Positions 20,219-41,206 of a DNA stretch of 64,000 bases are shown piece after piece. The stretch comes from Paragemmobacter ruber. GTDB lineage: Bacteria; Pseudomonadota; Alphaproteobacteria; Rhodobacterales; Rhodobacteraceae. A program made the position numbers and the translations under genes. The notes beneath the pieces are model-generated. The model searched no databases. It saw only the letters and a list, made by a program, of their open reading frames with translations, and had not been told where the DNA came from. Within the stretch, counting starts at the first letter, position 1; every line of letters begins with the position of its first letter. The DNA is taken from assembly GCF_009908315.1 (NCBI RefSeq), contig NZ_JAAATW010000003.1, positions 124,001-188,000 of the forward strand, in the 5' to 3' direction.

Positions 20219-20236
20219 TGTCAGGATAAGTTGACA
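20219..20236. promoter_or_regulatory. PpsR/CrtJ-type operator upstream of bciB
   Basis: TGTCAGGATAAGTTGACA fits the PpsR/CrtJ consensus TGTc-N10-gACA exactly (TGT-N12-ACA). It ends 75 bp before the bciB start, and its right half contains a -35-like TTGACA. It matches the site at 39967-39984 in 16 of 18 positions. PpsR/CrtJ is the aerobic, light-relieved repressor of photosynthesis genes in Rhodobacter. Confidence 0.6.
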
Positions 20237-20311
20237 CATCTGCTGGACGTGCCGCCGCCACCGCGCTAGCCTCGGCGCACAGGGCCGCCCCGGCCCGCGA
20301 AAGCCGCGCCC

Positions 20312-21550
20312 ATGCCCGATGGCCCGATCCCGCCCAGCCCCGGCCTCGTTGCCCCCGCCTTGGGGGGTGCCCCGCGCCCGGGCCTGTGCACCGATTGCGG
20401 CATCTCGCGCATGGGGGATGGCAAGGCCTGCGGCCGCGCCTGCCAGTTCATCGCCCCCGACTATCCCGCCCGCGAACGAGAGGCCCATGCCCGGGCGGCC
20501 GATCCGGGGCAGGGGGAAGAGGCGTTTTTCGGGGTCACCCGCCGGATGCTGCGCGCCCGGCTGACCGATCCTGCGCCCGGCGCGCAATGGACCGGGATCA
20601 CCACGGCGCTGGCCGCGCGCCTGCTGGAGAGCGGCGCCGTCACGGCCGTGCTCGCCACGGCGCCCGATCCGGCGGATCGCTGGAAACCCCTGCCGGTGCT
20701 TGTGACCGAGGCTGCCGCGCTGGCGGGGGTCCGGGGCATGCGGATGGGCTTTGGCCCCACGCTTGCCCTGCTGGAACCCGCCGCCGCGGCCGGTCACCGC
20801 CGCATCGCCGTCATCGGCATCCCCTGTCAGGTGCATGCCCTGCGCGCGCTTGAGGCCGAGCTTGGATTTGAGCGCATCTACGTCATCGGCACCCCCTGTT
20901 CCGACAACACCACAACCGCGAATTTCCACCATTTCCTTGCCCAGATCGACCCGGCCCCCGACGCGATCAGCTATCTGGAATTCCGCGCCGATTACCGGGT
21001 GGAGCTGCGCTATGACGATGGCCGCCCCACCCGCAGCGTGCCCTTCCTGAAACTTCCGCTGTCGAAATTGCCCGCCGACTTTTTTCCGATGACCTGCAAG
21101 ACCTGCGTGGATTACACCAACCGTCTGGCCGACATCACCGTGGGTTATATGGGCGGGGACGGCGATCAGTGGATCCTGACCCGCAACGACCGCGGGGAAG
21201 AGATCCTCGCGCTGCTGGCCGATCGGCTGACCGTCAAATCCATCACCGACAAGGGCAGGCGCGCGGGTGCCGTGCGCGGCTTTCTTGCCAATACCGAACG
21301 CGCGGCCGGTGGTCTGCCGCTGCGTGCCATGCCCGATTGGGCGCGCCCCATCGTGGCCTTCCTGCAACCCCGCATCGGCCCGCGCGGCCTTGAATTCGCG
21401 CGCGCGCGGGTCGAGATGAAGGCGATCGAGACGGTCCTGCATCTGCGCCGCGCCTTCCCGGCGCGGATGAAGAACATGATCCCCGGTCATGTCTGGCGCC
21501 TTGTCGCGCCCTATGGCCTGACACCGCAGCCGGGCGAGGAGAAGGAGTAG
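20312..21550 (+). CDS. bciB: Ferredoxin-type 3,8-divinyl chlorophyllide 8-vinyl reductase BciB (FrhB family)
   Basis: 412 residues of the F420-hydrogenase beta-subunit (FrhB) family. N-terminal Fe-S cysteines Cys26, Cys29, Cys40 and Cys44; then GAQWTGI, VIGIPCQVHALRALE, IYVIGTPCSDN, and Cys262/Cys265 in MTCKTCVDYTN followed by LADITVGYMG. These blocks in this order match cyanobacterial and green bacterial BciB more closely than hydrogenase subunits. The enzyme reduces the C8 vinyl group during (bacterio)chlorophyll synthesis using Fe-S clusters and FAD. The upstream PpsR-type operator supports the assignment. FrhB homologues of other function exist, so a phototroph background should be confirmed. 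No other bch genes are adjacent. Confidence 0.75.
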   Translation: MPDGPIPPSPGLVAPALGGAPRPGLCTDCGISRMGDGKACGRACQFIAPDYPAREREAHARAADPGQGEEAFFGVTRRMLRARLTDPAPGAQWTGITTALAARLLESGAVTAVLATAPDPADRWKPLPVLVTEAAALAGVRGMRMGFGPTLALLEPAAAAGHRRIAVIGIPCQVHALRALEAELGFERIYVIGTPCSDNTTTANFHHFLAQIDPAPDAISYLEFRADYRVELRYDDGRPTRSVPFLKLPLSKLPADFFPMTCKTCVDYTNRLADITVGYMGGDGDQWILTRNDRGEEILALLADRLTVKSITDKGRRAGAVRGFLANTERAAGGLPLRAMPDWARPIVAFLQPRIGPRGLEFARARVEMKAIETVLHLRRAFPARMKNMIPGHVWRLVAPYGLTPQPGEEKE

Positions 21551-39966: not shown

Positions 39967-39984
39967 TGTCAGGTTAAGCTGACA
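39967..39984. promoter_or_regulatory. PpsR/CrtJ-type operator upstream of ispG
   Basis: TGTCAGGTTAAGCTGACA, exact fit to TGTc-N10-gACA, 12 bp after the rodZ-like stop and 91 bp before ispG. It matches the bciB site (20219-20236) at 16 of 18 positions. It could also be a weak terminator hairpin for rodZ, but the pairing with the bciB site favours an operator. Confidence 0.55.
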
Positions 39985-40075
39985 TTTCCCTTTGCTGTGA
40001 TGGCCTTTCGGTTGCCCTTGCCGGACGGGATCGCTATTTCTGGTGCAGTCATCCGCCCGCAGCAGGACCGCCCTC

Positions 40076-41206
40076 ATGTCGCTGAATTCCGTTCGTCCCT
40101 GGCGCAACATCTATCGCCGGAAGTCGCGCCAGATCCGGGTGGGCAAGGTTCTGGTCGGGGGCGATGCACCGATCAGCGTTCAGACCATGACGAACACGCT
40201 GACCACCGATGTCGCCGCCACCATTGAACAGATCCAGCGCGCGGCCATTGCAGGCGCGGATATCGTGCGCGTCTCAACCCCCGATGAGGACAGCACCCGC
40301 GCGTTGCGCGAGATCGTGGCCGAAAGCCCCGTTCCCATCGTGGCCGATATCCATTTCCACTACCGCCGCGCGATCGAGGCCGCCGAGGCGGGCGCTGCTT
40401 GCCTGCGGATCAACCCCGGCAATATTGGCGATGCGCGCCGCGTTAAGGAAGTGGTCAAGGCCGCCAAGGATCACGGCTGTTCCATCCGCATCGGCGTGAA
40501 TGCCGGATCGCTGGAGCGGCATCTGTTGGAAAAATACGGCGAGCCGTGCCCGGATGCGATGGTGGAATCCGGCATGGATCACATCAAGCTGTTGCAGGAC
40601 AACGATTTCCACGAATTCAAGATCAGCGTGAAGGCATCGGATGTCTTCCTTGCCGCCGCCGCCTATCAGCAATTGGCCGAGGCGACGGATGCCCCGATCC
40701 ATCTGGGCATCACCGAAGCCGGGGGCCTGATGTCGGGCACCGTGAAATCGGCCATCGGTCTGGGCAACCTGCTTTGGATGGGGATCGGTGACACGATCCG
40801 TGTCTCCCTTTCCGCCGATCCGGTGGAAGAGGTGAAGGTGGGGTTCGAAATCCTCAAATCCCTCGGCCTGCGCCATCGCGGCGTGACCATCATCTCCTGC
40901 CCCTCCTGCGCGCGGCAGGGCTTTGACGTGATCAAGACCGTCTCGGCGCTAGAGGATCGGCTGGCCCATGTGACCACCTCGCTCTCGCTGTCGATCATCG
41001 GTTGCGTGGTCAATGGCCCGGGCGAGGCGCTGATGACCGATATCGGATTCACCGGCGGCGGGGCAGGATCGGGCATGGTCTATCTGGCGGGCAAGCAGAG
41101 CCACAAGCTGTCCAACGAACAGATGATCGACCACATCGTTGAACTGGTGGAGAAGAAGGCCGCCGAAATCGAGGCGGCCGAGAAAGCCGCAGAGGCCGCG
41201 GAATAG
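40076..41206 (+). CDS. ispG: 4-hydroxy-3-methylbut-2-en-1-yl diphosphate synthase (flavodoxin/ferredoxin)
   Basis: 376 residues from ATG 40076. TIM barrel with [36 protein letters not shown], and the [4Fe-4S] cysteines in [12 protein letters not shown] and the later [10 protein letters not shown], where the conserved Glu follows. Penultimate step of the MEP pathway: converts MEcPP to HMBPP, feeding carotenoids, quinones and the phytyl/geranylgeranyl tail of bacteriochlorophyll. A long 5' leader carries the PpsR-like site. C-terminal Ala/Glu/Lys-rich tail. Confidence 0.96.

Follow-up and report, generated by a model that had tools for sequence, protein, structure and literature searches.

The bciB gene and its product

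The stretch of DNA analysed, hereafter the window, was 64 kb in length. It contains a gene at positions 20312-21550 on the plus strand, designated bciB, that begins with ATG and is predicted to encode an FrhB-family Fe-S/flavin 8-vinyl reductase of 412 amino acids. A palindrome, TGTCAGGATAAGTTGACA, is located upstream at 20219-20236 and ends 75 bp ahead of the bciB ATG. It fits the pattern TGTC-N10-GACA exactly, as the first-pass annotation had claimed, and is treated here as a putative operator of the PpsR/CrtJ type. A tentative promoter, CTGGAC-N18-TAGCCT, lies just downstream of the operator at 20243-20272 on the plus strand. Rfam models at gathering scores gave nothing at bciB and four tRNAs in the window.

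The product matched the C- and N-terminal FrhB_FdhB domains over the Pfam cut-offs (PF04432, 9.5e-28; PF04422, 4.9e-20), and was the sole PF04432 match, hence the one FrhB-family protein, of the genome. Among sequences of solved structure, the top match was 7-hydroxymethyl chlorophyll a reductase (HCAR; 5dqr, 2.8e-65, residues 16-403), with F420-type FrhB proteins trailing at 6e-16 or weaker and with partial coverage (224 bits to HCAR versus 62 bits at best to the F420 type). In plants, HCAR serves in converting chlorophyll b to chlorophyll a (PMC4214422). The two proteins align over nearly their full length at 35% identity and have common blocks around GAQWTGI, DYTN and GPxG. Eight cysteines (C26, C29, C40, C44, C172, C196, C262 and C265) were invariant at the 74 bciB loci collected from the family (73/73 or 74/74 of the loci having the column) and would be able to hold two [4Fe-4S] clusters, with putative ligand roles; C40, the third N-terminal cysteine, is positioned otherwise in HCAR. 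The open reading frame is confirmed as encoding a full-length BciB/HCAR-type protein of the FrhB family with predicted 8-vinyl reductase activity. The earlier assignment to BciB was borne out to this extent, and the affinity to F420 or other FrhB reductases that had been named as the contrary outcome was, by similarity search, weak and partial.

Distribution of bciB, bciA, reaction-centre and ppsR genes

Two reaction-centre proteins, which we take to be PufL and PufM, were encoded at 772-774 kb of the same contig (C3) that carries bciB at 144 kb, approximately 627 kb away. One PpsR-CrtJ protein was detected (535.8 bits; cut-off 275.4). A genome without bacteriochlorophyll genes or ppsR had been named as grounds for abandoning the original reading; both the reaction-centre proteins and PpsR were found. 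BciA was not detectable in this genome with an Arabidopsis DVR probe (best E 0.027), a probe that reached BciA in relatives at E values down to 9.2e-99. Visual inspection of the ten PF13460 matches in the genome yielded no BciA candidate that was accepted.

A sample of 394 genomes of the family was searched for bciB, the reaction centre (PF00124), bciA and PpsR. After removal of two weak-probe genomes (G264 and G375) from 76, bciB was counted in 74 and is thus common in the family. PF00124 was over its cut-off in 166 genomes, one sub-cut-off match (G323) having been removed from 167, and PpsR, counted at E <= 1e-70, was present in 165, of which 164 also passed the cut-off of the family. BciA-probe matches with E <= 1e-10 occurred in 92 genomes, of which 70 were kept at E < 1e-50. 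The other 22 (E 1e-18 to 4e-11) were taken as other SDR proteins; three of them fell among reaction-centre genomes with neither enzyme and four were bciB genomes.

Reaction-centre genes accompanied bciB in 73 of its 74 genomes (Fisher p 1.7e-31 over the 394 genomes, a value that overstates independence because the loci are related by descent) and bciA in 67/70. PpsR was detected in 73/74 and 66/70, respectively. The two reductase genes occurred together in 0/394 genomes, an exclusion that would not be strict if any of the weak BciA-probe matches in the four bciB genomes (G015, G020, G250 and G294; E 2e-13 to 6e-17, 29-30% identity), judged to be other SDR proteins, were BciA. The 166 reaction-centre genomes therefore divided into 73 with bciB only, 67 with bciA only and 26 with neither. 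BciB was thus found in chlorophototrophs in place of BciA, with a single exception (G027) and weak probe matches aside, and on gene content bciB appears to stand in for bciA. The first-pass annotation had proposed a different or additional C8-vinyl reduction step. Because bciA was undetectable here and never co-occurred with bciB in the 394 genomes, BciB more probably substitutes for BciA at this step than adds to it.

The exception, a 98% complete genome, carried bciB (locus L056) with an exact operator, TGTCAACTAAAGTTGACA, and neither PF00124 nor PpsR was detected in it, which counts against the explanation favoured below; either a recent loss or a missing replicon would account for it. Among the 26 reaction-centre genomes without detected BciA or BciB, 20 were at least 95% complete, 23 had PpsR and three gave weak BciA-probe matches. 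These genomes may use COR alone or an unfamiliar 8-vinyl reductase.

Among the matches listed, bciB and PF00124 were on one contig in at least 17 genomes. Distances in these 17, read by eye, were approximately 25 kb in two (G040 and G140), approximately 85 kb in one (G171) and above 100 kb in the remaining 14, so bciB usually lies apart from the photosynthesis cluster. A conserved gene neighbourhood was sought around bciB and not found, the widest neighbour cluster spanning 8/74 loci. Together with the distance of approximately 627 kb in the window's own genome, this agrees with the isolated locus described at first.

The putative upstream operator and its recurrence

The bare consensus TGT-N12-ACA was at chance level both in the window (5 matches versus 4.03 expected) and genome-wide (361 versus 350 in the control). 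It was consequently rejected as stand-alone evidence, and the palindrome by itself is no evidence. An extended form, TGTMA-N8-TKACA, which was picked after inspecting sites of this same genome, gave 17 genome sites versus 1 in the reversed control. Seven of the 17 were within the fetched photosynthesis-gene regions, three towards that end of contig C3 where the reaction-centre genes lie and four around ppsR on contig C2; the remaining ten comprised one each at bciB, ispG and hemE and seven others, which were inspected by eye. The bciB operator differs at three positions from TGTCAGATAAAGTTGACA (C2:768009, in the photosynthesis-gene region) and at two from the ispG site. The gene thus carries a TGT-N12-ACA operator of the type found at the genome's own photosynthesis genes, near a putative promoter, and from this operator we infer PpsR binding, repression and an oxygen/light response at bciB.

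The 74 bciB loci were examined from 200 bp upstream of the aligned start to 28 bp beyond it. An exact extended site was present at 33/74 loci; allowing up to one mismatch raised the count to 40/74. Control windows of equal size contained no exact site (in-gene 0/74, far upstream 0/74, downstream 0/72, with one downstream site at one mismatch), and mononucleotide shuffles gave 0.027%. No site within one mismatch was present in the tested window at 34/74 loci, although 73/74 of the genomes have PpsR; control by PpsR would thus not extend to every bciB locus. A named set of 80 loci from another collection overlaps the 74, L222 and L071 being on equally long contigs, such that the counts are not additive; in it, exact sites were found at 43 of the 79 loci with upstream sequence (controls 0/80, 0/78 and 0/78). 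They belonged to records titled Rhodobacteraceae, Paracoccaceae, Rhodobacterales or their genera; three further exact-site MAGs had no more specific title than Alphaproteobacteria or Proteobacteria (L209, L211 and L214). Records of the Acetobacteraceae type, Rubrivivax, Sandarakinorhabdus and Salinarimonas in this set had no site within one mismatch.

At bciA loci, for which a larger window of 250 bp upstream was used, exact sites were present at 5/67 and sites with at most one mismatch at 7/67, with one exact site in the far-upstream control. The difference from bciB (40/74 versus 7/67) gave a Fisher p of 3.4e-8 with kinship ignored. Judged by these sites, bciB appears to be wired to putative PpsR control far more often than bciA. 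The five bciA loci with an exact PpsR-type site (L128, L129, L132, L144 and L146) have it starting 42-76 bp ahead of the aligned start, so that in some lineages PpsR may also govern the BciA step. No PpsR was detected in the genome of L129 (G264, 77% complete).

Promoter geometry was compared in 65 distinct operator-bearing upstream regions from both locus sets after removal of duplicates. At bciB no promoter passed a sigma-70 consensus scan, by which CTGGAC-type hexamers are not recognised. The arrangement CTGGAC-N17-19-TA[GC]..T recurred in 7/65 regions, all from loci at least approximately 83% identical to the window gene. In the window and six close relatives the operator is just upstream of the CTGGAC-N18-TAG-type hexamers and not over the putative -35, which counts against the explanation favoured below. 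In 9/65 regions the operator sequence TTGACA was followed at 17 bp by a -10-like hexamer (at least 4/6 positions), compared with 0-1/65 at any of the other spacings between 8 and 33; -10-like hexamers past the start codon were left out of these counts. The operator would contain the -35 element in these nine regions. PpsR sites over the -35/-10 region were confirmed by mutation at Dinoroseobacter shibae bchF (PMC10890935), and by analogy PpsR could repress bciB in a like manner.

BciB as a candidate member of the PpsR regulon

The explanation that we consider very probable as a whole is that bciB is a lone, PpsR-repressed 8-vinyl reductase gene replacing bciA. The gene would encode BciB, a ferredoxin-dependent enzyme of (bacterio)chlorophyll synthesis with FAD and [4Fe-4S] centres. 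PpsR would bind the palindrome next to the promoter (over the promoter in other lineages) and block transcription of bciB, presumably as a single-gene transcript, under oxic and possibly also lit conditions. On derepression, bciB would be expressed along with the bch, crt and puf genes, and its product would reduce the C8 vinyl group of divinyl-chlorophyllide, filling the place of BciA, which is apparently absent from the lineage; COR (BchXYZ) might serve as a backup for this reduction. A result that counts against the proposal is that Synechocystis BciB failed to restore 8-vinyl reduction in Rhodobacter sphaeroides (PMC4214422).

Parts of this proposal have precedents, namely the protein family, the occurrence of BciB in purple bacteria and the location of an 8-vinyl reductase away from the cluster. 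The literature describes 8-vinyl reductases of three classes (PMC4214422), and BciB has been reported from some purple bacteria (PMC7242693). One legend lists purple non-sulphur bacteria as included in its BciA and BciB trees, with the tree unspecified (PMC4836224). In aerobic anoxygenic phototrophs, the shared cluster genes were reported to cover every bacteriochlorophyll step except that of the 8-vinyl reductase (PMC3176799). Like the described BciB proteins (Synechocystis slr1923 and Chloroherpeton thalassium Ctha_1208), the window protein, a putative BciB, is of the FrhB family, has conserved cysteines, is tied to chlorophototrophy and is an alternative to BciA; unlike them, its gene carries a PpsR-type operator. 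BciA of R. sphaeroides acts at the same step, C8-vinyl reduction, but is an unrelated NADPH-dependent protein. We take RSP_3070 to be the locus tag of its gene. In the PpsR ChIP-seq table for R. sphaeroides, bciA is named in none of the 19 rows, and RSP_3070 is absent from the main text of that paper (PMC4344238). Known PpsR targets there are bch, crt, puc and hemE (PMC4344238); the TGT-N12-ACA operators are alike, and bciB, together with ispG in part of the genus, would be added as putative targets. Control of bciB by PpsR was not found described in the passages of the open-licence literature that treat bciB or vinyl reductase with PpsR, CrtJ or aerobic anoxygenic phototrophs. A review names bciB and PpsR/CrtJ in unrelated passages (PMC4500134), and the passages on bciB and aerobic anoxygenic phototrophs in PMC5972617 make no point linking PpsR to bciB. 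As far as the open-licence literature was searched, neither the putative inclusion of bciB in the PpsR regulon nor the exclusion between BciA and BciB has been described.

Alternatively, the protein could be related to BciB and HCAR but act elsewhere in pigment metabolism, for example as a reductase of hydroxymethyl-chlorin or bacteriochlorophyll turnover, with COR responsible for C8 reduction. Its nearest solved relative is indeed HCAR and not BciB, the COR of Rhodobacter capsulatus is capable of 8-vinyl reduction (PMC4214422), and the reaction-centre genomes without either reductase suggest that a conventional enzyme may be dispensable. An enzyme of pigment turnover should, however, accompany either type of phototroph, and the exclusion between bciB and a gene for an unrelated 8-vinyl reductase fits equal function; we regard this alternative as unlikely. 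Slightly less likely again is that the palindrome is the site of another regulator or a fortuitous inverted repeat, with bciB expressed constitutively. The chance-level frequency of the bare consensus and the lack of a site at nearly half of the bciB loci would agree with it, but the excess of the extended form over its reversed control, the position of 7/17 such sites in photosynthesis-gene regions, and the recurrence of the exact site before bciB in the absence of any in control windows do not.

Going by its family names in Pfam and NCBIfam, the protein could be an F420-linked FrhB-type reductase with no pigment role. The NCBIfam FrhB/FpoF models scored 62.8-74.8 bits, far below their cut-offs of 269-475, and bciB is strongly associated with reaction-centre genes, which makes this reading highly improbable.

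With bciB read as a PpsR-repressed replacement of bciA, BciB is indicated as the C8-vinyl reductase for a large share of phototrophic Rhodobacteraceae (73 of the 166 reaction-centre genomes sampled), which corrects the customary assumption that the whole family uses BciA as R. sphaeroides does. The PpsR regulon would also gain a putative, testable target away from the photosynthesis gene cluster, and the exclusion of BciA and BciB, combined with the genomes having neither, makes COR as sole 8-vinyl reductase directly testable. We give an even chance to the broader proposition that reductase choice and regulation go together, BciB often being under PpsR and BciA mostly outside the regulon, such that the enzyme swap comes with a regulatory swap. 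A paired swap might arise because oxic cells that make no pigment pay a high price for an Fe-S flavoenzyme whose substrates are photosensitising pigments.

Other PpsR-type sites of the genome were named by their neighbouring genes. One precedes a gene that we presume, by eye from its sequence, to be hemE. In R. sphaeroides, hemE is a PpsR ChIP-seq target (PMC4344238; 19 rows of Table 2). A second putative operator in the window, TGTCAGGTTAAGCTGACA, is located at 39967-39984, upstream of a separate gene, ispG (40043-41206). Exact sites were found 108-114 bp ahead of the aligned ispG start in 6/30 fetched loci (in-gene control 0/30), all six among the 19 loci of the same genus, including that of the window. 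In some members of the genus, the MEP isoprenoid pathway may be linked to PpsR. A further PpsR-type site at C1:1288524 (L026) lies between two genes that we take, by eye, to encode an FAD-dependent amine-oxidase-like protein and a ChrR-like anti-sigma factor, hinting at a possible link between PpsR and the singlet-oxygen response.
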